35,373 nucleotides of DNA from Catellatospora bangladeshensis (GTDB taxonomy: Bacteria > Actinomycetota > Actinomycetes > Mycobacteriales > Micromonosporaceae). The notes beneath the pieces are model-generated. The model was not told where the DNA came from. It ran no database searches and saw only the letters and a program-made list of their open reading frames with translations. The stretch lies in the NCBI RefSeq assembly GCF_016862575.1, contig NZ_BONF01000065.1:1-35373 (forward strand). Reading direction: 5' to 3'. Of the stretch, positions 3,128 through 35,373 are shown piece by piece; the first letter of the stretch is position 1, and each line of letters starts with the position of its first letter. The translations under genes were made by a program, and so were the position numbers.

Positions 3128-3189
3128 TGCAGTTTCCCCGAAACTGCACACCGCGACGGGTGGCAGGCTGCAGTTTCCCCGAAACTGCA
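3128..3189. repeat. Palindromic doublet, repeat family 1 (two copies)
   Basis: Two identical 21-bp palindromes at 3128-3148 and 3169-3189: arms TGCAGTTTC and GAAACTGCA around a CCC centre. Start-to-start distance is 41 bp with a 20-bp spacer. A second doublet with the same 41-bp spacing is at 30184-30245. The pair lies between the convergent 3' ends of bglC and the WD40 gene. Confidence 0.9.
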
Positions 3190-3234
3190 CGCTGTGCCGG
3201 GAGACGGGCCGCCCGGCCGTTGGGGGCGAGGGGG

Positions 3235-8984: not shown

Positions 8985-9109
8985 CTCGGACGACCCCGCG
9001 ATGGCTACGGACAGTGAGGTTTGCGTCGCGGTGTCCGGCTGTCCCGAGGTGCGGGACGTCGGCGTGCGCGCCCACCCCGGATCATCGCCGCGGGTAGACT
9101 TCGTGATCA

Positions 9110-9187
9110 GGCCGAGAGGCGCTGCAACGGGCTGCTGCGAGCACAGCCCGCCACGCTCGGCCGGTTCCACTTCCGCAAGGGCGCCTC
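9110..9187 (+). ncRNA. SAH riboswitch (S-adenosylhomocysteine) of metH
   Basis: The sequence and fold match the ahcY/metH SAH riboswitch. P1 is GGCCGAG (9110-9116) with CTCGGCC (9156-9162); P2 is CGGGCTG (9128-9134) with CAGCCCG (9144-9150). The conserved core AGGCGCTGCAAC lies between them. The pseudoknot pairs GAGGCGC (9116-9122; base 9116 shared with P1) with GCGCCTC (9181-9187). All stems are perfect. Known members sense SAH and turn on genes that remove it; placement directly before metH fits. Confidence 0.88.
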
Positions 9188-9208
9188 CGATCCGTCGGAG
9201 GTGTCGCG

Positions 9209-9211
<3 letters not shown>
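9185..9211 (+). promoter_or_regulatory. RBS-masking hairpin and TTG start of metH
   Basis: CTCCGA (9185-9190) can pair with TCGGAG (9195-9200), burying the ribosome site GGAGG (9197-9201). Three bases (9185-9187) also belong to the riboswitch pseudoknot, so the two structures exclude each other. SAH binding would free the RBS. The start is TTG at 9209, seven bases after GGAGG. Confidence 0.7.
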
Positions 9212-12823
<3,612 letters not shown>

Positions 12824-12982
12824 CCTGTCGCGCGGGTGCGGCTGGGTGGAAAACCGCTGGCGGCGGGGGTGGTGGTGGCGCCCTCGCGGCACGTGGCGCA
12901 TGTCGGCGGTGCGGCTTCGGCGGTTGTGGGGCTTCTCGGCGGCGGCGGTGGTAGCGCGGTGGTGGTAGCCGCGGCGGCGGGC

Positions 12983-13047
12983 AAGATCGCGGTCTCGTGT
13001 CGAAATGTGGGGTCAGACCCCAGGTTCCGACACGAGACGGCGATCAT
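12983..13047. repeat. 65-bp nested palindrome, repeat family 3, copy 1
   Basis: Symmetric about base 13015. Outer arms GATCGC (12985-12990) with GCGATC (13040-13045), then GTCTCGTGTCG (12992-13002) with CGACACGAGAC (13028-13038), and inner TGGGGTC with GACCCCA. Mismatched pairs: G-G at 12991/13039 and 13007/13023, and A-C at 13003/13027. Copy 2 starts 105 bp downstream. Confidence 0.92.
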
Positions 13048-13087
13048 GGTCCGCGTCGCCCGCGCTCGTCGGCGGCTGCTGCGGGTG

Positions 13088-13152
13088 AAGATCGCGGTCT
13101 CGTGTCGGGATGTGCGGTCAGACCGCAGGTTTCGACACGAGACGGCGATCAT
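13088..13152. repeat. 65-bp nested palindrome, repeat family 3, copy 2
   Basis: Same design as copy 1, axis at 13120. The inner stem is TGCGGTC with GACCGCA: relative to copy 1 one pair is flipped from G-C to C-G, so pairing is kept. Both G-G mismatches of copy 1 are retained. Confidence 0.92.
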
Positions 13153-13398
13153 GGCCCACGGCCCACGGCTGGCGACCCGTGGCGCGGGGCGCGTGGGAGT
13201 GGTGCGGCGCGGGGCGTAAGGGGCCGGGGCGACCATGAAGATAATCAGCTACATGTGTCGATTTTGCTATCGGGTGAGCGGGTTAGAAGACGGGCTGTGC
13301 AGCCAATCTGATCGCTGATCGATCGTCGCCCATACTCCTTACAACGTCACCGCTTCGTGCGGGCGGGCGGTGGCACCCCGGCGGTGTGGGGGTCAGTC
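13153..13398. other. Gene-free stretch upstream of the lipoprotein gene
   Basis: No supported gene. The part from about 13235 to 13345 is clearly less G+C-rich than its surroundings and probably holds the promoter of the lipoprotein-protease unit (a CATACT box is at 13331-13336), but I cannot pair it with a convincing -35. Confidence 0.4.
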
Positions 13399-14094
13399 AT
13401 GAAGAGCAGGCGGCAGGCAGCGGGCACGCGGGGCAGGTCGACACTGGCCGCCCTCCTCCTCACGGCCGTGACGGCCGTGTCGGGCGGGTGCGGAGCCCCC
13501 GAGTTCGAGTACGTGAAGAACGCCGACGACGGCGTGTACTTCAAGGTCCCCAACGGCTGGCAGCGGCTCACCCATGAGGAGATGGACGGGCTGCTGTCCG
13601 GTGAGGACCCCGAGTCGGCGGCCGCGGCGGCGCGGCGCGAGCGCATCTGGTCGGTCGGCTACGACGGCGACGACTCCGCCCAGCCGCTGCACCTGTTCCT
13701 GGGCCTGGGTGACGAGCCGTTCGTGTACGTCATGGTGCGGCGCCTCAGTGAGGCCGAGGTCAACGCGGTGTCCCTGAACGGCGCGCGGGATCTGCTGTTC
13801 CCGATCACCCCTCAGGCGCGTGAGGACAACGCGCAGAACCCGATCTTCCAGGGGTTCGAGCTGATCTCGGACGAGGTGCTCGCGGCCGAGAGCGGGGTGC
13901 GCGGGGCGCGCACGGTCTTCAACTACAGCCCCGGCGGGGGTGCGCTGCAGACGTTCGTCCAGACCGTCTACGTCGACGACGTGGGCGGGCGGCTCTACCA
14001 GTTCATCCTGCGCTGTTCGGCCACGTGTTACCGCCTGCGGGCGGCGGACCTGGACGCGGTCGTGCAGTCCTTCACGGTGAGGAGCCCACGATGA
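13399..14094 (+). CDS. Predicted lipoprotein coupled to the FtsH-like protease
   Basis: Exported lipoprotein of 231 aa with no function I recognise. The signal peptide (about residues 1-31) ends in a lipobox VSGG before Cys. The mature part is soluble and acidic. It opens with a segment resembling PsbP/LpqN-type folds (FKVPNGWQRLTHEEMD), but that likeness is weak. A Cys pair occurs near the C-terminus (ILRCSATCYRL). The ATG at 13399 is favoured because the signal sequence begins directly after it. The stop overlaps the start of the next gene by four bases (ATGA), so the two proteins are probably made together. It may present or guard substrates for the membrane protease; this is inferred only from coupling. 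Confidence 0.75.
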   Translation: MKSRRQAAGTRGRSTLAALLLTAVTAVSGGCGAPEFEYVKNADDGVYFKVPNGWQRLTHEEMDGLLSGEDPESAAAAARRERIWSVGYDGDDSAQPLHLFLGLGDEPFVYVMVRRLSEAEVNAVSLNGARDLLFPITPQAREDNAQNPIFQGFELISDEVLAAESGVRGARTVFNYSPGGGALQTFVQTVYVDDVGGRLYQFILRCSATCYRLRAADLDAVVQSFTVRSPR

Positions 14095-16469
14095 ACGAGC
14101 CGACCGAGCCGGTCGAGGGCCTGCGCCCGCCCGGCGAGCCGTTCCGGCAGCAGGAGCGGCCGACGCGCAAGCGCCTGCCGTTCTGGGACCGGGTCAAGTT
14201 CCTGTTCCTGTTCGCGGTCGCCTGGCTGGTGCTGGTGTGGGCGACGATCGCCGACTTCCCGGGCGGCATGCCGTTCTCGGAGGCGGCGCTGATCCAGCTG
14301 ACCGAGGCGCGCTGGCTGCTGATCCTGGCCGGTGTGGAGCTGCTGCGGCAGCTGCACTTCCTGGTCAGCGAGCACTGGTCGGCGTACCACCGGTTCTGGA
14401 CGCATCGGGTGTTCGGCGGGTTCGAGCGGGTCACCCACCGGCGGCTGTCGGACTGGAGCCGGTTCCGGCTGGCCAGGATGCTGAAGTGGCTGTTCTGGAT
14501 CGGGGTGTTCGCGCTGGTGGCGGGGACGGTGCTGGACACCTCGCCGGTGCTGGCGCTGTTCCAGGCGCCGGCGATCCTGTGGGCGCTGCTGCCGTACGCG
14601 CTGCAGCTGATCTTCATCCTGGCCGTGGTCGTGCTGCAGTTCGTGGCGATCTTCTGGTTCCTGTCGCGCGGCGGGGTGGACGTGTACTACCCCGACGACA
14701 TCAAGACCCGGTTCGCCGACGTCTGGGGCCAGGACCACGTGCTGGCCCGGGTGCGGGAGAACATCGTCTTCCTGGAGCGGCCCGAGGAGATCGAGGCCAA
14801 GGGCGGCTACGTGCCGTCCGGCCTGCTGCTGTGGGGGCCGCCGGGCACCGGCAAGACGCTGATGGCCGAGGCGGTCGCGGGGGAGACCGGCAAGCCGTAC
14901 GTGTTCGTCGACCCGGGCGCGTTCACCAACATGTTCATGGGCGTCGGCATCCTGAAGGTCAAGTCGTTGTTCCGCAAGCTGCGCAAACTGGCCCTGCGCT
15001 ACGGCGGCGTGATCGTCTTCTTCGACGAGGCGGACTCGCTGGGCAGCCGCGGCATGCTCGCGCAGGGCGGTCCGGGCTTCCCGCGCGGCATGCGGCCCGC
15101 GTTCGGCCCGGCGGCCGAGGGCTGCCACGGCTTCGGCTACCTGTCGCCGGAGACGCAGTGGCGGCTGGCCCGGCACGCGGCAGCCGACCTGCACGCGGAG
15201 CAACCCGCGGAGTCCGGGCGGCGCAGCCGGTTCGTGATGGGCGCGGGCATGGGCGGCGGCGCGGGCATGGGCACGCTGCAGGCGCTGCTCACCGAGCTGT
15301 CCGGGCTGAAGAAGCCGCGCGGCTTCGTCAACCGGTACGTGCGCCGGGTGCTCGGGATGCGTCCCAAGCCGCCGCCGCGCTACCGGATCCTGGTGATGAT
15401 GGCGACGAACCTGCCGGAGGCGCTGGACGAGGCGCTGCTGCGGCCGGGCCGCATCGACCGCATCTACAAGGTCGGCTACCCGAGCAAGGCCGGGCGGGTG
15501 CGCACCTACGAGGGCTACCTCGGCAAGGTGCGCCATGAGCTGACCTCGGCGCAGGTCGACAAGCTCGCCACGATCACGCCGTACGCCACCGGCGCGACCA
15601 TCAAGGACCTGATCAACGAGGCGCTGATCACCGCGATCCGGGACGGCCGCGAGGTCATCGCCTGGCGCGACGTGATGCGGGCCAAGCAGCTCAAGGAACT
15701 CGGCCCGCCGGAGGACGTGGAGTACATCGAGCGCGAGCGGCACGCCGTGGCGGTGCACGAGGCCTGCCACGCGGTGATCGCGTACCGCACCCGGCACCAC
15801 ATGGAGATCGACATCGCCACCATCGAGAAGGGCAGCGACTACCTGGGCATGGTGGCCAGCATCCCGCCCGAGGACCAGTTCACCCGGTGGCGCACCGAGT
15901 ACGAGTCCGACATCTGCGTGTCGCTCGCGTCGCTGGCCGGGGAGCGGCTGTTCTTCGGCGGCGACAGCTCGTCGGGTGTCTCCGGTGACCTGGAGTCGGC
16001 CACCACGGTCGCCTCGTTCATGGAGGGCTACTGGGGCATGGGCGGCACCGTGTCGTCGTACTCCACCGCCAAACGCCTGGAGGTCGGCGCCCCCGGCGGC
16101 GGCCAGGGCGGGCGGCGCAAGAAGGGCCAGGACACCGAGGCCGACATCCGCCGCGCGCTGGCCGACCGCATCGAGGACATGCTCAGCGAGCTGCTCGAAC
16201 GCACCGGCCAGATGCTCGTCCAGCACCGCCGCGACGTGCTCGCCCTGGCCCACGCCCTGGAGACGCACAAGACCCTCACCGGCGACGACGTCGTCGCGGT
16301 CCTCGAAGGCCGCCCCGGCCCCGCCGTGGACGGTTCCCTCTACCGCTCCGAGGAGTTCCTCGCGCAGCTCGACGCGTACCACGAAGCGGCCGCGGCCGCC
16401 CACCAGCACCACAGCCGCATCACCATGGCCCTGCCTGCCACCTCGGTCACCCCCACCCCCGCCGAGTAA
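14091..16469 (+). CDS. FtsH-like membrane AAA+ zinc metalloprotease, atypical
   Basis: Membrane-bound ATP-driven protease of 792 aa related to FtsH. The N-terminus has three to four hydrophobic segments (about residues 36-55, 76-96, 127-145, 160-195), unlike the two of canonical FtsH. Walker A is GPPGTGKT (249-256), Walker B is VFFDEAD with Asp312-Glu313, and the second region of homology is ATNLPEALDEALLRPGRIDR with Arg451 and Arg454. The M41 zinc site is HEACH (556-560), with a likely third ligand Asp633 in SGDLESAT. Between Walker B and the arginine fingers there are about 80 extra residues, Gly-rich (GMGGGAGMG). The C-terminus is extended. Start ATG overlaps the lipoprotein stop. It is probably a specialised paralogue rather than the housekeeping FtsH; substrates unknown. 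Confidence 0.88.
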   Translation: MNEPTEPVEGLRPPGEPFRQQERPTRKRLPFWDRVKFLFLFAVAWLVLVWATIADFPGGMPFSEAALIQLTEARWLLILAGVELLRQLHFLVSEHWSAYHRFWTHRVFGGFERVTHRRLSDWSRFRLARMLKWLFWIGVFALVAGTVLDTSPVLALFQAPAILWALLPYALQLIFILAVVVLQFVAIFWFLSRGGVDVYYPDDIKTRFADVWGQDHVLARVRENIVFLERPEEIEAKGGYVPSGLLLWGPPGTGKTLMAEAVAGETGKPYVFVDPGAFTNMFMGVGILKVKSLFRKLRKLALRYGGVIVFFDEADSLGSRGMLAQGGPGFPRGMRPAFGPAAEGCHGFGYLSPETQWRLARHAAADLHAEQPAESGRRSRFVMGAGMGGGAGMGTLQALLTELSGLKKPRGFVNRYVRRVLGMRPKPPPRYRILVMMATNLPEALDEALLRPGRIDRIYKVGYPSKAGRVRTYEGYLGKVRHELTSAQVDKLATITPYATGATIKDLINEALITAIRDGREVIAWRDVMRAKQLKELGPPEDVEYIERERHAVAVHEACHAVIAYRTRHHMEIDIATIEKGSDYLGMVASIPPEDQFTRWRTEYESDICVSLASLAGERLFFGGDSSSGVSGDLESATTVASFMEGYWGMGGTVSSYSTAKRLEVGAPGGGQGGRRKKGQDTEADIRRALADRIEDMLSELLERTGQMLVQHRRDVLALAHALETHKTLTGDDVVAVLEGRPGPAVDGSLYRSEEFLAQLDAYHEAAAAAHQHHSRITMALPATSVTPTPAE

Positions 16470-16472
16470 AGC

Positions 16473-16514
16473 AAGGGCACCTTCTTAACGCTATGCGTTG
16501 TAGAAGGTGCCCTT
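16473..16514. repeat. GGCACC hairpin, repeat family 2, copy A
   Basis: Stem AAGGGCACCTTCT (16473-16485) with AGAAGGTGCCCTT (16502-16514) and an inner mini-hairpin AACGC-tat-GCGTT (16487-16499). It starts three bases after the TAA of the protease gene and could act as its terminator. Copy D (30323-30370) is its reverse complement over 26 bases. Confidence 0.88.
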
Positions 16515-16539
16515 CCTAACCCCTCGCGAGGCGGGCACG

Positions 16540-16551: not shown

Positions 16552-17292
16552 GTGAGTGCCAAGAGCGACCCGGGCCGCAGCCTCGCCCTGCTGTGGGGCT
16601 CGCACCAACGGCCCGGCCGCTCCGGGCTCACCGTGCGGGCGATCGTCACGGCCGCCATCGAGCTGGCCGACGCCGAGGGGGTCGACGCGGCCACGATGCG
16701 CCGCGTCGCCGAGCGGCTGGGCGCGGGCACCATGTCGCTGTACACCCACGTGCCCGGCAAGACCGAGCTCACCGACCTCATGATCGACACGGTGATCGGC
16801 GAGCTGTACACCGGTGTCGACGATCCGGCGAGCAGGGGCGGCTGGCGCGACGGGCTCCGCTACATCGCCGAACGCAACTGGGACCTGGCCCTGCGGCACC
16901 CGTGGCTGCTCGACGTGACCGGCGGACGGCCGACCCTGGGCCCGCACGCGTTCCTCAAGTACGAGGCGGAGTTGCGGGTGCTGGAGGGCATCGGCCTGTC
17001 CGACCTGCAGCAGGACTCCGTGCTGACCCTGGTGCTGACCCACGTCGAGGGCGTCGCCCGCACCCACGCCGGTCTGGCCAAGGCGCAGCGCGAGTCGGGC
17101 ATGACCGAGAATGAGTGGTGGCGGGCCACCGCCCCGGTGCTGGAACGCGTCGCGCATGGCGACTACCCCGTCGCCTCCCGTGTCGGCCAGGCCTCCAGCG
17201 AGGTCTACCAGGCATCCAGCGACCCGGCGCACGCCTTCGCCTTCGGTCTCGACGTCATCCTCGACGGCGTACAGCGCCTCATCGACAAGTAA
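16552..17292 (+). CDS. TetR-family transcriptional regulator
   Basis: DNA-binding repressor of 246 aa. The N-terminal helix-turn-helix is at about residues 27-70, with recognition region MRRVAERLGAGTMSLYTHVPGKTELTDLM. The C-terminal part (about 80-246) fits the TetR class C-terminal ligand and dimer domain. The GTG at 16552 is chosen because a GATACT box lies six bases upstream; a longer ATG at 16507 would begin inside the repeat hairpin. The gene stands alone, bracketed by two family 2 hairpins (copies A and B); its TAA stop supplies the first base of copy B. No divergent target gene is adjacent, so its regulon is unknown. Confidence 0.88.
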   Translation: MSAKSDPGRSLALLWGSHQRPGRSGLTVRAIVTAAIELADAEGVDAATMRRVAERLGAGTMSLYTHVPGKTELTDLMIDTVIGELYTGVDDPASRGGWRDGLRYIAERNWDLALRHPWLLDVTGGRPTLGPHAFLKYEAELRVLEGIGLSDLQQDSVLTLVLTHVEGVARTHAGLAKAQRESGMTENEWWRATAPVLERVAHGDYPVASRVGQASSEVYQASSDPAHAFAFGLDVILDGVQRLIDK

Positions 17293-17339
17293 GGAAGGGC
17301 ACCTTCTCAACGGACGTCGGTGTAGAAGGTGCCCTTCCT
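17292..17339. repeat. GGCACC hairpin, repeat family 2, copy B
   Basis: Perfect 16-bp stem AGGAAGGGCACCTTCT (17292-17307) with AGAAGGTGCCCTTCCT (17324-17339), loop of 16 bases containing GACGTC. The first base is the last base of the TetR stop codon. It also lies three bases from the HypF 3' end, so it may terminate both convergent genes. Confidence 0.9.
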
Positions 17340-17342
17340 GAC

Positions 17343-19646
17343 TCAGCGGTCGCGGGCGGCGGCGACGGTGGCCTGGCCGAGGCTGATGCCGCCGTCGTTC
17401 GGGGGGACCTGGCTGTGGGTCAGCACGCGGAAACCGGTGGCGAGCAGGCGGTCGACGGTACGGTTCAGCAGCAGCGTGTTCTGGAAGACGCCACCGGACA
17501 GGGCGACCGTGTCCAGGCCGTGCCGCTCGCGCACCAGCGCGCACGCGCTGACCACGAGATCGGCGAGCCCGGCGTGGAAGCGGGCCGCCACCAGCGGCAC
17601 CGGCACGCCGTCCAGCCGGTCGGCGACCACGGCCCGGACCAGGTCGGTGCCGTGCAGGGTCAGCACCGGGTCCTCGCCGACCCGGGCCTGATAGCCCGTG
17701 ACGTCGCCGCGCTCGGCGATCTGCTCCAGGTCCACCGCGGCCTGGCCCTCGTAGGTGACCTCGTCGCGCAGGTCGAGCAGCGCCGCGACCGCGTCGAACA
17801 GCCGGCCCGCGCTGGAGGTCGGCGGGGAGTTGACACCGCGCCGCGCCGCCTCGCGTACCGGCCGCCACCGCAACGCCTGCCGTGCCACCAGCGGCAGCAC
17901 CGGCAGGTCACCGCCCAGCCGATCCAGGTAGGACAGCGCCATGCGCCACGGCTCGCGCACCGCGGCCGCCCCGCCGGGCATCGGCACCGCCTCCAGGTGA
18001 CCCACCCGGGCGTACGCCGCCAGATCCGCGACCAGGATCTCCCCGCCCCACAGCGTGCCGTCGTCGCCGTAGCCGAGCCCGTCGAACGCGACGCCGATCA
18101 CCGCCTGCTGCACCCCGTGCTCGGCCAGGCAGGACGCGATGTGGGCGTGGTGGTGCTGCACCCCGACCGTCTCCACCCCGTCGCGCTCCAGCGCGTACGC
18201 CGTGGACAGGTAGTCGGGGTGCAGGTCGTGCGCGACCAGCTCGGGCGTGATGCCGAGCAGCCGTTCCAGGTGCGCGATCCCGTCGGCGTAGGAGCCGTGC
18301 GTGCGCGCGTTCTCCAGGTCGCCGATGTGGTGCGACAGCGTCGCGTACTGGCCGCGCGCCAGGCAGAACGTGTTCTTCAGCGCCGCGCCGCAGCCCAGCA
18401 CCGGCCGCCGCAGCGCCCACGGCAGCCGCAGCGCGCGCGGCACGTACCCGCGCGAGCGGCGCAGCAGCATGGGCGCGCCGCGGACGATCCGGGCCACCGA
18501 GTCGTCGGTGCGCATGTGGATGGGCCGGTCGTGGGTCAGCGCCACGTCGGCGATGCCCGCCAGCCGGGCCAGCGCGTCGTCGTCGCGGTAGGCGATCGGC
18601 TCGTCGGACAGGTTGCCGCTCGTCATCACCAGCGGCCGTACGACCGTGCCGAGCAGCAGCTGGTGCAGCGGCGTGTAGGGCAGCATCACGCCCAGCTCGC
18701 GGCAGCCCGGCGCGACCGCGTCGGCGATCCGGTGCGCGGGGTTTCGGCCACGCCGGGGCAGCAGCACGATCGGCCGGGCCGGGTGCCGCAGCAGCCGCGC
18801 CGCGGCGGGTTCCACCTCGGCGATCCCGGCCGCTTCGGCTACGTCGGTCACCATCAGCGCGAAAGGTTTGTCCTCGCGGTGTTTGCCCGCCCGCAGCCGG
18901 GCCGCGGCCTCCGGGTGGGTCGCGTCGACCGCCAGGTGGTAGCCGCCCAGCCCTTTCACCGCGACGATCGCTCCGCTGCGCAGCAGCCGCGCGGTCGCCG
19001 CGATCGGGTCCGTGTGGTCGCCGAGCAGCGTCCGGCCGTCCATGCCGACCAGGCGCAGCCGCGGGCCGCAGGCGGGGCAGCACACCGGCTGAGCGTGGAA
19101 GCGGCGGTCGGTGGGGTCGGCGTACTCCTTGGCGCAGTCCTCGCACATGGTGAAGGCGGCCATGGTGGTGTTCGGCCGGTCGTAGGGCACGTCGCGCACG
19201 ATGGTGAAGCGCGGGCCGCAGTGCGTGCAGTTGGTGAACGCGTACCCCTGCCGCCGCCCGCCCCCGCCGGTCGTCTCGGCCAGGCATGCCTCGCAGGTCG
19301 CGGCGTCGGGGCTGACCTGTGCGGCGGGCGGGCCGGACGCGTCGCTGGCGACGATGACGAACCCGGGCCGCCCGGTGACCGGCAGCGGCAGCGCGGTCAG
19401 CGAGTCGATCACCGCGAGCGGCGGGCGTTCCAGGTCCAGGGCGGACAGGAACGCGTCCAGCGCCGGGCGCGGGCCCTCGGCCTCGATGAAGACGCCCTCG
19501 GTGTCGTTGCCGACGTGCCCGTGCAGGTGCAGCCGCTGCGCGAGCGTGTACACGAACGGCCGGAAGCCGACGCCCTGCACGATGCCGGCCACGCGCACGG
19601 ACAGCCGCTCGTGGGACGTTTCATCAGAAATCACCCCGTATGCCAT
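17343..19646 (-). CDS. hypF: [NiFe]-hydrogenase maturation carbamoyltransferase HypF
   Basis: Cytoplasmic enzyme of 767 aa that makes the thiocarbamate on HypE from carbamoyl phosphate and ATP, the source of CN ligands of [NiFe] hydrogenases. All modules are present. The acylphosphatase domain (about 15-100) has GIVQGVGFRPFVYTLAQRL. Two zinc-finger units (about 115-200) have CEAC, CTHC, CEDC and CPAC. The YrdC-like domain (about 215-390) has KHREDKPFALMV. The C-terminal Kae1-like domain has HHHAHIASCLAEHG and VAFDGLGYGDDGTLWGGE. Length is normal. No other hyp or hydrogenase structural genes are nearby, which is unusual because hyp genes mostly cluster. The start ATG lies 69 bp from the divergent HAD gene. 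Confidence 0.95.
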   Translation of the reverse strand: MAYGVISDETSHERLSVRVAGIVQGVGFRPFVYTLAQRLHLHGHVGNDTEGVFIEAEGPRPALDAFLSALDLERPPLAVIDSLTALPLPVTGRPGFVIVASDASGPPAAQVSPDAATCEACLAETTGGGGRRQGYAFTNCTHCGPRFTIVRDVPYDRPNTTMAAFTMCEDCAKEYADPTDRRFHAQPVCCPACGPRLRLVGMDGRTLLGDHTDPIAATARLLRSGAIVAVKGLGGYHLAVDATHPEAAARLRAGKHREDKPFALMVTDVAEAAGIAEVEPAAARLLRHPARPIVLLPRRGRNPAHRIADAVAPGCRELGVMLPYTPLHQLLLGTVVRPLVMTSGNLSDEPIAYRDDDALARLAGIADVALTHDRPIHMRTDDSVARIVRGAPMLLRRSRGYVPRALRLPWALRRPVLGCGAALKNTFCLARGQYATLSHHIGDLENARTHGSYADGIAHLERLLGITPELVAHDLHPDYLSTAYALERDGVETVGVQHHHAHIASCLAEHGVQQAVIGVAFDGLGYGDDGTLWGGEILVADLAAYARVGHLEAVPMPGGAAAVREPWRMALSYLDRLGGDLPVLPLVARQALRWRPVREAARRGVNSPPTSSAGRLFDAVAALLDLRDEVTYEGQAAVDLEQIAERGDVTGYQARVGEDPVLTLHGTDLVRAVVADRLDGVPVPLVAARFHAGLADLVVSACALVRERHGLDTVALSGGVFQNTLLLNRTVDRLLATGFRVLTHSQVPPNDGGISLGQATVAAARDR

Positions 19647-21648: not shown

Positions 21649-22161
21649 TCAGTGTCGTGCCACGCGTTCCAGTCGCACCTCCGCCAGTGCACGGGCGTCG
21701 TAGGTGCTCTCCCGGTTCTCCGCGAAGTCGGCGAGGCGGCTGAGCACCTCTACGTTGCGGCCGTGCAGCGCCAGGTCGTTCACCTTGGTGCGCATCCAGC
21801 GCATCGGGCCGCGTACGAAGTCCTCGACCAGGATGACCCTGGTGCGCCCGGCGTCCACGCGGACCAGGGTGAAGGCGACGACGGCCTCGCCCAGCGGCCA
21901 CATCCGGGCCCGCATCACCAGCCGGTGCGGTGGATCGCAGCTGACCACGTGCGTGACGTCGGCCGTGGACAGCGGCCACGGGCCGACCTTGTGGTGCAGC
22001 CGGCTGCCCATGGCGGGCCAGCTGGAGTCGACGTCCCTGATGTGCGCGGTGCCGACCACCCAGTCCGCGTAGCTCCAGCCGTCGGCCAGCACGGCGAAGA
22101 TCCGCTCGGGGGAGGCCTCCATCACCCGCTCCGTTCGCGCCATGCCCGCACTCGTACCCAT
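21649..22161 (-). CDS. SRPBCC (START/polyketide-cyclase-like) family protein
   Basis: Soluble protein of 170 aa with the helix-grip fold of the SRPBCC superfamily, which binds hydrophobic ligands in a deep cavity. The family start is visible as ERVMEASPERIFAVLADG, followed by WSYADWVVGT, the beta-rich middle RLVMRARMWPLGEAVVAFTLV, and a C-terminal helix containing GRNVEVLSRLADFAENR. Length fits single-domain members. Two starts are possible, ATG at 22161 or ATG at 22143 (MARTERVM); neither has a strong RBS. The ligand is unknown. It lies upstream of an unknown gene on the same strand. Confidence 0.82.
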   Translation of the reverse strand: MGTSAGMARTERVMEASPERIFAVLADGWSYADWVVGTAHIRDVDSSWPAMGSRLHHKVGPWPLSTADVTHVVSCDPPHRLVMRARMWPLGEAVVAFTLVRVDAGRTRVILVEDFVRGPMRWMRTKVNDLALHGRNVEVLSRLADFAENRESTYDARALAEVRLERVARH

Positions 22162-22216
22162 ACCCCCGCCGATCCATGCATTCCGGGCGGAGTGGTCACA
22201 TGATCTGCGGGCGGAG

Positions 22217-22241
22217 GTTAGCGGTGGGTGGGAGCGGGTAG
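22217..22241 (+). promoter_or_regulatory. Stress-sigma (SigB-type) promoter candidate, PRC-barrel gene
   Basis: GTTA (22217-22220), 15-base spacer, GGGTAG (22236-22241), close to the GNNT-N14-16-GGGTAY pattern of actinobacterial SigB/SigF/SigH-group promoters. It is 41 bases before the start codon, leaving room for a short leader with a strong RBS. Confidence 0.45.
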
Positions 22242-22281
22242 GCGGTTGTCGTCAGCAACCAGTCCGAAAGGAGGAGGAATC

Positions 22282-23954: not shown

Positions 23955-23988
23955 GATCGCTGGATGCGTGATCACGCATCCAGCGATC
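23955..23988. repeat. 34-bp perfect palindrome
   Basis: Left arm GATCGCTGGATGCGTGA (23955-23971) is exactly complementary to the right arm (23972-23988), with no loop. Ends GATCGC/GCGATC match the ends of repeat family 3. It lies in the 339-bp gap between hydrolase and photolyase genes, which otherwise holds the GATGCA repeats and the small palindrome at 24112. Confidence 0.9.
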
Positions 23989-27350: not shown

Positions 27351-28453
27351 AGGTGACCGGATTCGAGCTGCGCCGCATCGCGATGCCGCTGGTCAGTCCG
27401 TTCCGGACGTCGTTCGGGGTGGAGCGGGACCGCGACGTGCTGCTGGTGCGCGCGGTCACCGAGGAGGGGGCCGAGGGCTGGGGCGAGTGCGTGGCCATGT
27501 CCGCGCCGCTGTACTCCAGCGAGTACGTCGACGCCGCCGCCGAGGTGGTGCGCCGCTACCTGGTCCCGGCGGTGCTGAGCCTGCCCGACGCCGACCCGTA
27601 CCAGGCCGAGGTGCCCTTCGCGAAGATCAAGGGGCACCCGATGGCCAAGGCCGCGGTGCAGACCGCGCTGCTCGACGCCCGGCTGCGGCTGGCGGGCATG
27701 CCGCTGGCCGCGCACCTGGGCGCGGTGCGCGACCGGGTCCCCGCGGGCGTCTCCGTCGGCATCATGGACTCGATCCCCGAGCTGCTGGAGGCGGTCGAGG
27801 GCTACCTCGCCGAGGGCTACCTGCGGATCAAGCTGAAGATCCAGCCCGGCTGGGACGTGGCACCGGTCCAGGCGGTGCGCGAGCGCTTCGGCGACATCCT
27901 GCTCCAGGTCGACGCGAACACCGCGTACACGCTGGCCGACGCGCGGCACCTGGCCAAACTCGACCCGTTCGACCTGCTGCTGATGGAGCAGCCGCTGCCC
28001 GAGGACGACATCCGCGGGCACGCCGAGCTGGCCCGGCAGGTGCGCACCCCGATCTGCCTGGACGAGTCCATCACCAGCGCCCGCGCCGCCGCCGACGCGA
28101 TCGCGCTCGGTGCCACGTCCGTCGTCAACATCAAGCCCGGCCGGGTCGGCGGCTACCTGGAGGCGCGCCGCGTACACGACGTCTGCGCCGCCAACGGCGT
28201 CCCCGTCTGGGTCGGCGGCATGCTGGAGACCGGCCTCGGCCGCGCCGCCAACGTCGCCCTCGCCGCGCTGCCCGGCTGCGTCCTGCCCGGCGACACCTCC
28301 GCCTCGGACCGCTACTTCTCCCGCGACATCACCGCCCCCTTCGTCCTCGCCGACGGCCACCTCCCCGTCCCCACGGCCCCCGGCATCGGCGTAGACCCCG
28401 ACCCCGCCACCCTCACCGAGGTCACCACCGCCACCGAATGGCTCGCCAGGTAA
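27347..28453 (+). CDS. N-acylamino acid racemase / o-succinylbenzoate synthase
   Basis: Enolase-superfamily enzyme of 368 aa. The catalytic lysines are Lys162-x-Lys164 (RIKLKI) and Lys263 (NIKPGR); metal ligands are Asp189 (QVDANT), Glu214 (LLMEQPL) and Asp239 (CLDES). These positions are nearly the same as in the Amycolatopsis NAAAR/OSBS enzyme. The family can dehydrate SHCHC in menaquinone synthesis or racemise N-acyl amino acids. No other men gene is present, while a GNAT gene precedes it and an N-acyl-D-amino-acid deacylase follows, so racemase activity is more likely here. Translation is coupled to the GNAT gene. The TAA stop is also the first part of repeat copy C. Confidence 0.9.
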   Translation: MKVTGFELRRIAMPLVSPFRTSFGVERDRDVLLVRAVTEEGAEGWGECVAMSAPLYSSEYVDAAAEVVRRYLVPAVLSLPDADPYQAEVPFAKIKGHPMAKAAVQTALLDARLRLAGMPLAAHLGAVRDRVPAGVSVGIMDSIPELLEAVEGYLAEGYLRIKLKIQPGWDVAPVQAVRERFGDILLQVDANTAYTLADARHLAKLDPFDLLLMEQPLPEDDIRGHAELARQVRTPICLDESITSARAAADAIALGATSVVNIKPGRVGGYLEARRVHDVCAANGVPVWVGGMLETGLGRAANVALAALPGCVLPGDTSASDRYFSRDITAPFVLADGHLPVPTAPGIGVDPDPATLTEVTTATEWLAR

Positions 28454-28500
28454 GGAAGGGCACCTTCTTAACGGTTTTCGTAGTAGAAGGTGCCCTTCTT
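28453..28500. repeat. GGCACC hairpin, repeat family 2, copy C
   Basis: Stem AAGGGCACCTTCT (28456-28468) with AGAAGGTGCCCTT (28485-28497), extended outward to 28453 and 28500 by a G-C, a G-T and an A-T pair; 16-base middle. It starts within the TAA stop of the racemase gene and is probably its terminator. Confidence 0.88.
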
Positions 28501-28520
28501 AACGCTGCCTGAACGCGGCG

Positions 28521-30144: not shown

Positions 30145-30183
30145 CCCCTCCCGCGTACCGGCCGCCCGGCCGCCCGGCCGTCG

Positions 30184-30245
30184 TGCAGTTTCGGGGAAAC
30201 TGCGCGAAAGCACGTCGCCGTGCGTGCACTTTCCCCGAAAGTGCA
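30184..30245. repeat. Palindromic doublet, repeat family 1 (copies 3 and 4)
   Basis: Copy 3 (30184-30204) has arms TGCAGTTTC and GAAACTGCG around GGG, so the centre is inverted relative to the first doublet. Copy 4 (30225-30245) has TGCACTTTC and GAAAGTGCA around CCC, a paired G/C swap that keeps the stem; two more flanking pairs extend it to 30223-30247. Spacing is 41 bp, as in the first doublet. Confidence 0.9.
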
Positions 30246-30322
30246 CGGGGACCATGGGCGGCTACGCACGCCCACCGCGTCACGGGCGGAAGTGTCGTGA
30301 AAGGACGCTGCACCGCAGGGTT

Positions 30323-30370
30323 AAGAAGGGCACCTTCTTCTACGCATAGCGTTAAGAAGGTGCCCTTCCT
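30323..30370. repeat. GGCACC hairpin, repeat family 2, copy D (inverted)
   Basis: Stem AAGGGCACCTTCTT (30326-30339) with AAGAAGGTGCCCTT (30354-30367). It contains the reverse complement of copy A, including ACGCATAGCGTTAAG, so it is inserted in the opposite orientation to copies A-C. Unlike those, it is not at a stop codon. Confidence 0.88.
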
Positions 30371-30596
30371 TTCCTTGGGGGAAGCTGAGAATGGCAGCGT
30401 GGTCGGGTCTTGTGATCAGCAGAGGTCGATGCGATGCTTTCATCTACTCGTGTGGAGCCTCACGCGGATCGGGCGGCCGAGGGCATCCGGTGACGGACGG
30501 CGCCTGACTGGCCGCTGCATGGCCGTCGCCACCTCGTCGTCGTTCTCGGCCCGATTCCGGGACTAGCGGCCGGCACCCGCTCCATGAGGAGAGCTC
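30371..30596 (+). other. Upstream region of the GH48 gene
   Basis: No gene. It should contain the promoter. I looked for the CebR-type cellulase operator (TGGGAGCGCTCCCA) and found none. The RBS of the cellulase, GAGGAG, lies at the end of this stretch. Confidence 0.4.
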
Positions 30597-35220: not shown

Positions 35221-35285
35221 AAGATCGCCGTCCTGTGTCGAAACCTGCGGTCTGACCCCACGTCCGGACACCGGATGGCGATCTT
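35221..35285. repeat. 65-bp nested palindrome, repeat family 3, copy 3
   Basis: Begins AAGATCGCC and ends GGCGATCTT, axis at 35253, i.e. 32 bases from the first base exactly as in copies 1 and 2. Many bases of the outer arms differ from copies 1-2, yet 25 of 32 positions still form Watson-Crick or G-T pairs. Confidence 0.85.
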
Positions 35286-35314
35286 CGCTGGGGTGACGTG
35301 GGCTGGGAGTTGGG

Positions 35315-35373
35315 AAGATCGCGGTCTCGTGTCGCAAAGCGTGGTCTGGCCACAGGTTTCGACACCAACGCCG
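35315..35373. repeat. 65-bp nested palindrome, repeat family 3, copy 4 (cut by window end)
   Basis: Starts AAGATCGCGGTCTCGTGTCG like copy 1, axis at 35347. The inner stem is GTGGTC with GGCCAC, containing one G-T pair. The right arm diverges after GACAC and the last bases lie outside the window. It starts 94 bp after copy 3. Confidence 0.8.

Follow-up and report, generated by a model that had tools for sequence, protein, structure and literature searches.

Neighbouring copies of an intergenic palindrome in Catellatospora bangladeshensis, which we call family A, are locked to whole turns of the double helix. This spacing is the new result, with no counterpart in the open-access titles and abstract openings among the matches listed. 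The family is large, is restricted to the genus Catellatospora among 354 genomes of the Micromonosporaceae, and favours the 3′ ends of genes. It is REP/BIME-like by behaviour, and by the tests made it is not a RAYT-REP. We give a probability of about 0.5 to the reading that family A is a genus-specific, REP/BIME-like intergenic 3′-end element that is read as duplex DNA, likely by a putative protein.

Palindromes of the window

The window, which is the whole 35,373-bp stretch that was analysed, is one entire contig of a draft genome that totals 8.83 Mb over 115 contigs. This genome is referred to as G000, a close relative as G007 and a more distant relative as G006; all are Catellatospora. The genus follows from G010, one of the ten other genomes of the group, whose metH locus matches the named C. 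paridis record without a difference over 6,021 bp. The features of the window that matter here are the following.

9209–12823, plus strand: metH (methionine synthase) ORF, NCBIfam TIGR02082; copies 1 and 2 lie past its 3′ end
12983–13047, plus strand: family A palindrome, copy 1; core of 61 bp, bounded by GATC, at 12985–13045
13046–13089, no strand: spacer of copies 1 and 2, between GATC edges; 44 bp, the 10-turn rung of the ladder
13088–13152, plus strand: family A palindrome, copy 2; core at 13090–13150
35221–35285, minus strand: family A palindrome, copy 3; core at 35223–35283, inverted relative to copies 1 and 2
35284–35316, no strand: spacer of copies 3 and 4; 33 bp, the 9-turn rung
35315–35365, plus strand: family A palindrome, copy 4; stops after GACAC, where an IS4-family element has most likely inserted
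35366–35373, no strand: 8 bases matching the terminal inverted repeat of an IS4-family element; contig end

The initial annotation described two 65-bp palindromes 105 bp apart from start to start and a second set 94 bp apart. Both are confirmed, the first at 12983–13047 and 13088–13152 and the second with starts at 35221 and 35315. The many arm substitutions noted in copy 3 are in part an inversion, since this copy scores better on the minus strand (66.9 versus 62.8 bits on the plus strand). Copy 4, which had been counted as a full unit, is not one: its right arm stops after GACAC at 35365. On the plus strand, the stretches of copies 1 to 3 fold better than dinucleotide shuffles (z −8.3, −10.7 and −6.0; 0 of 200 shuffles as good in each case). 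The stretch of copy 4 folds no better than its shuffles (z −0.53; 57 of 200 as good).

Judging by the last 8 bases of the window, which match the end of the insertion sequence, copy 4 was most likely cut by an IS4-family insertion at the contig end. Three complete copies of this element, about 1.5 kb long with the ends CAACGCCGTTGACTTAAGG, were found in G007 (C1:3419957–3421533, 7451355–7452931 and about 7859920–7861440). Each lies inside a family A unit at the same position, in a sample that comprises the stretches examined and is not blind, as one of the three comes from a stretch chosen for its A units. The copies are flanked by 10-bp repeats made of GTGTC and five more bases. In the one copy scanned for domains, the transposase carries an IS4 N-terminal domain (PF13006) and a DDE domain (PF01609). 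The same end is found at contig ends, with 8 bases at copy 4, 7 bases at the end of contig C67 and, with one difference, at the start of contig C48; the element accounts for several contig ends. Insertion of an IS4-family element, ISRm22, into REPs is reported in the excerpt consulted of PMC1525189.

Distribution and genomic location

We aligned 25 non-redundant copies, drawn from the 30 best matches, without gaps. The consensus is GATCGCnGTCTCGTGTC, then 27 less conserved bases, then GACACGAGACnGCGATC. Units rarely depart from 61 bp, the exact length of 196 among the 201 distinct ones taken from G000 and G007. On either side, the two bases beyond GATC are A/T-rich; they carry as much information as the G and C of GATC, and counting them gives 65 bp.

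Strict copies, defined as matches to the family A pattern with at most three mismatches, number 147 in G000 and 142 in G007. The other nine Catellatospora genomes have 51, 27, 26, 21, 14, 2, 1, 0 and 0. The pattern read backwards gave 0 matches in G000 at the same threshold, which makes the excess over chance overwhelming. There were no strict copies in the 343 genomes of the Micromonosporaceae outside Catellatospora, and a covariance model matched 11 of 11 Catellatospora genomes and 0 of 30 others. Searches of phage, plasmid and IMG/VR sequences gave no family A match. Titles and abstract openings of the open-access literature, among the matches listed, contain no report of this repeat. Half-units repeated directly every 42 bp or so, or four helical turns, form an array that leads into one full unit in both G007 (C1:3229154–3229297) and G000 (C11:342886–343030).

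Location was analysed in tiles of 2.41 Mb from three genomes, with the G000 part picked for its many copies, and with genes called by a custom script. We called 99 units of family A and 42 units of a second family, B, in these tiles. None of the 99 A units is inside a predicted gene (one, at a contig edge, is unclassified), and one of the 42 B units is. The A loci comprise 33 convergent, 42 tandem and 5 divergent gaps, compared to 12.6, 42.4 and 25.0 expected by intergenic length. The B loci (25 convergent, 11 tandem and 5 divergent) show a strong shift to convergent gaps. The 3′ end of the upstream gene is closer than the next start for 56 of the 62 tandem-placed units (51 A and 11 B), with a median distance of 58 bp to the former and 198 bp to the latter. 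The genes in G000 whose 3′ ends face pairs share no theme on inspection by eye. Dispersed, intergenic, apparently non-autonomous palindromes with a real tendency to pair and with some paired changes in their arms, as first proposed for these repeats, are what the data support.

Family B is a 75-bp palindrome with GATC ends, arms GATCnnCCGACTTGCC(T/A)GGCA and an asymmetric GGGCGTATCTTG core that is seen in both orientations. It occurs in G000 (C11:185188–338517 and C5:3175–311743) and in the G007 and G006 tiles, mostly in convergent gaps, and is unpaired in the tiles.

Other elements were noted in the window. A SAH riboswitch (RF01057, 40.2 bits) is present at 9108–9193, just upstream of the metH ORF start at 9209. 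An abundant hairpin repeat, AAGGAAGGGCACCTTCTTAACG with its complement, is found at 16460–16525, 17282–17347, 28443–28508 and 30313–30378; a copy of it in contig C11 has dozens of 90–100% matches in G006 and G007. Another hairpin repeat, built on GCAGTTTCCCCGAAACTGC, lies at 3170–3226 and 30147–30247 and also in contig C5 of G000 and in G007. A perfect 34-bp palindrome with GATCGC ends and a different sequence is located at 23955–23988 and recurs in a G007 tile.

Spacing of neighbouring units

Searching G000 and G007 for family A pairs with gaps of 22–83 bp gave 41 strict pairs. Their gaps in bp (number of pairs in brackets) are 33 (11), 34 (2), 42 (1), 43 (8), 44 (8), 45 (1), 47 (1), 52 (1), 53 (1), 54 (1), 55 (3), 64 (1) and 65 (2). 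They cluster at 33–34, 42–45, 53–55 and 64–65 bp, with 47 and 52 as outliers, and the pair centres are about 9, 10, 11 or 12 helical turns apart. The best-fit period is 10.5–10.6 bp. At 10.5 bp the resultant R is 0.886 for the 41 pairs, among which orthologous pairs of G000 and G007 are counted twice. The ladder spans 18 of the 62 gap lengths searched and has 38 of the 41 pairs within 1.5 bp, its origin of 33.3 having been chosen after the data were seen. Merging of orthologues and tandem duplicates leaves 33 loci with R of 0.928 and 32 of 33 within 1.5 bp, and happened to remove the two worst gaps, 47 and 52. None of 100,000 sets derived from the 33 loci by jitter within one turn was as good.

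A looser definition gave 71 pairs, a set that includes stretches chosen for a known pair and again counts orthologous pairs twice. Two of these, at a gap of 20 bp, are orthologues of each other. The other 69 (gaps 25–140 bp) have R of 0.867, with 63 within 1.7 bp and six off the ladder (42, 42, 47, 49, 52 and 98); the best-fit period of the looser set is 10.7 bp with a flat optimum. The contiguous tiles of G000 and G007 alone contain 18 pairs, with gaps of 20 (twice), 42, 43 (five times), 44 (seven times), 47 and 54 (twice).

The spacers are mostly unrelated between loci. For 33 of the 41 spacers, 11 of 528 comparisons exceeded the 99th percentile of shuffles (about 5 expected). On our reading, seven of these 11 are between orthologues or tandem duplicates, and the four between different loci all involve 33–34-bp spacers. 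The orientation of neighbours in 66 pairs is direct in 49, inverted in 13 and tied in 4, a soft assignment as the units are nearly symmetric. Neighbours are slightly more alike than random copies (0.79 versus 0.75). The tandem pairing recorded in the initial annotation is a real tendency, but most A units in the tiles stand alone: for 66 of the 99, neither an A nor a B unit starts within 260 bp. A search for weak partners around these 66 single units found none.

The pair pattern (gaps 28–58, exact inner GATCGC) gave no match in seven of the nine other Catellatospora genomes. G008 and G009 each have a single match, which on visual inspection does not belong to family A. Strict copies nevertheless number between 14 and 51 in five of these nine genomes. 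So far, then, paired units have been seen in one clade only, in the two sister genomes G000 and G007. In open-access titles and abstract openings, among the matches listed, there is no helical-turn spacing of intergenic palindromes. Spacing in whole helical turns argues for recognition of duplex DNA, and suggests that in family A pairs the double helix, rather than a folded RNA, is being read.

Arm pairing and the folded form

The initial annotation proposed selection on the folded form, citing a change from G-C in copy 1 to C-G in copy 2 at the fifth pair counted from the axis. This change is in the sequence, but it is not general (position 26, 62 pairs versus 59.8 expected, p 0.38). Covariation was assessed in 196 units with 1000 permutations at p ≤ 0.05, uncorrected for 41 tests, and its significance is inflated because orthologues and duplicates are included. 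Watson–Crick pairs are in excess at arm positions 7, 8, 9, 10, 11, 14, 18 and 19, although only marginally so at 11, 14 and 19. The base that borders GATC on the outside shows an excess as well, and of 11 flank offsets tested, offset 9 reaches p 0.009. Across the 196 copies the inner stem (positions 22–30) has no Watson–Crick excess over permutations, and pairing at position 23 is below expectation (69 versus 92.5). General selection on a folded nested stem is thus unsupported, the excess being found at some arm positions only.

Arm changes come in blocks, and an identical 4-base block is on both arms in 54 of 196 units (16 expected). The core is inverted at one orthologous family B pair (C5:9104 versus G007). 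Template switching between inverted repeats yields matching arms and can invert the core, according to the excerpts consulted of PMC8604942 and PMC8794818. As arm homogenisation by template switching would give the same pairing signal, the pairing argues only weakly for selection on the folded form of family A. Arm covariation in a palindrome is by itself no evidence for a folded RNA.

Conservation and turnover

Ten orthologous spacers of G000 and G007 were compared, nine matched by synteny and one (C6:44853) by spacer similarity. Syntenic sites with unequal unit numbers were excluded, apart from the metH site, for which the comparison used the first spacers. Length is kept within 1 bp in 8 of the 10, with identities of 0.51–0.95; two of these eight are only 0.51 and 0.63 identical. 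The two length-changed spacers measure 33 versus 55 bp (22 bp, two turns) and 64 versus 52 bp (12 bp). Seven of nine keep their length when the similarity-matched spacer is left out. Among flank segments of 20–110 bp, 8 of 26 are unchanged in length to within 1 bp, a difference from the spacers with p 0.011 (8/10) or 0.022 (7/9) in Fisher tests on small numbers.

For 25 one-to-one orthologous elements (13 A and 12 B), a set made up only of those recognisable in both genomes, identity is 0.92 compared to 0.74 for adjacent DNA, and the element is higher in 23. Orthologous A units are 0.90 identical and random copies 0.74–0.75, thus most units are old. These comparisons are better evidence for selection on the sequence than the arm pairing is for selection on the folded form.

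When contigs C5 and C11 of G000 are set against G007, the element is present in both genomes at 30 of 35 syntenic loci, and 6 have no syntenic place. Between G000 and G006, it is present in both at 3 of 16, and 25 have no syntenic place. Unit number differs between orthologous sites at five loci. The metH site has two A units in G000, three in G007 and, as judged by eye, one unit of family B in each of G003 and G006; it has no A or B unit in G005, G002 and G010. Two clean empty sites were observed. One is opposite the A unit at C11:316524, with one GATC in G007 and GATC at both ends in G000; the other is a single GATC in the window (22125–22281) opposite a family B unit in G007. Clean junctions make up 2 of 10 one-sided sites, and at least three other matching stretches have no GATC. 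Empty-site analysis against G006 gave no clean junction.

Alternative explanations

The ladder could be an imprint of copying, in which an enzyme complex on a resident copy inserts or duplicates the next one on a constant helical face and the pair has no later function. The pairs sit in the two genomes with the most copies, their members are mostly direct and slightly more alike than random copies, and copy number varies between orthologous sites. However, the orthologous spacers that differ by 22 and 12 bp changed length after the pair had formed, and the eight that kept their length while diverging suggest a continuing constraint. There is also no enzyme candidate from the PF01797 search of the genome or from arms bordering a gene in the tiles. 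We find this explanation rather doubtful. We consider it improbable that the palindrome is kept for RNA pairing, as a hairpin at transcript 3′ ends that serves as a terminator or decay barrier. The strong hairpins of copies 1 to 3, the 3′-end location and the excess pairing at arm positions 7–10 and 18–19 agree with such a role. In the sense strand of the 51 tandem-placed A units, G-U exceeds A-C by 62 to 34 at positions 1–21 (p 0.006); in convergent units the ratio is 41 to 33, which is not significant. G-U leads to the same degree (57 to 32) at the inner positions, which lack covariation, and a strand mutation bias therefore suffices to produce the excess. An RNA hairpin by itself leaves the 10.5-bp ladder between units unexplained, and the inner stem does not covary. 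There is no T tract, and the region 12700–13450 has 0 terminator-like sites and no Rfam family above the gathering cut-off, with only sub-cut-off matches to miRNA models in the element. For a structured RNA, as suggested in the initial annotation, or a terminator, the element thus shows neither covariation along the whole stem nor a U tract or known RNA family.

The same annotation named a RAYT-type element, that is, a REP moved by a Y1 (HUH) transposase. Family A resembles these in being made of dispersed intergenic palindromes, some of them paired, that are entered by an insertion sequence as REPs are (PMC1525189, excerpt consulted), and it is abundant and intergenic, as expected of a REPIN (147 strict copies; 0 of 99 A units in genes). 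Yet PF01797 has 0 matches in the genome, a 99.69% complete draft, and 5 of 14 control genomes were positive; the pairs are mostly direct rather than alternating, and the unit is 61–65 bp with GATC ends. A RAYT origin is, in our judgement, extremely unlikely. The family might instead be a MITE, a relic of a transposon that is bounded by terminal inverted repeats and has duplicated a GATC target, and the two clean empty sites have the single GATC that this would leave. Deletion between two GATCs would mimic such a duplication, however, and the clean junctions are few and accompanied by matching stretches without GATC. No full-length element with such ends is present in the 2.41 Mb of tiles. Of nine isolated arms there, eight can be ascribed to breaks by insertion sequences, to the truncated copy 4 or to arrays of half-units, and the ninth is at a contig end. 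The likeness of orthologous A units, well above that of random copies, also speaks for old units, and a MITE seems very unlikely.

Proposed mechanism and its meaning

In the preferred reading, duplex recognition, a putative oligomeric DNA-binding protein would contact the two inverted arms of the family A duplex. Neighbouring elements, with centres 9, 10, 11 or 12 turns apart, would be held on the same face of the helix, so that bound complexes could touch. The two arms of one copy may be kept alike by arm-to-arm copying (template switching) together with selection on sequence. A role in chromosome topology or in insulation of neighbouring genes is possible. A wider proposal, which we put forward tentatively, is a genus-specific system for chromosome folding or gene insulation, in which a putative protein would recognise A and B palindromes alike where genes end and, within one clade, would assemble across neighbours in strict helical register. 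Selection would then keep the phase rather than the spacer sequence or the exact distance, and spacers would change by about whole turns.

It is difficult to establish what REP-like repeats do, since copies may multiply whether or not they are useful. That mostly unrelated spacers follow a ladder of about 10.5 bp is evidence from the genomes that the geometry of the duplex is important for these elements. The ladder predicts that half-turn insertions break the effect of a pair and that whole-turn insertions do not.

Comparison with known systems

Here we rely on the excerpts consulted of the papers cited. Family A shares block-wise matching arms, and family B an inverted core, with template-switched inverted repeats (PMC8604942 and PMC8794818). 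Template switching alone gives neither genome-wide copies nor helical spacing, unlike what is observed for family A. As with ISRm22-type elements (PMC1525189), an IS4-family element occupies a fixed place in A units, in three of three copies. The target of the ISRm22 type is the palindrome axis, whereas the site in family A is the inner arm end, after GTGTC and five bases.

The closest likeness in behaviour is to REP/BIME elements. In both there are more than 100 intergenic palindromes per genome that are lineage-specific and partly clustered (PMC2817692). REPs are entered by insertion sequences (PMC1525189), as is family A, and in Stenotrophomonas the DNA between units is unrelated between clusters (PMC2817692), as it mostly is in family A. 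No Y1 transposase domain was found in this genome, in contrast to the REP/BIME systems (PMC2817692). Family A also differs from these in its 61–65-bp, nearly symmetric units with GATC ends and in its mostly direct pairs. The inter-REP segments of Stenotrophomonas vary substantially in length (PMC2817692), whereas those of family A follow a 10.5-bp ladder.
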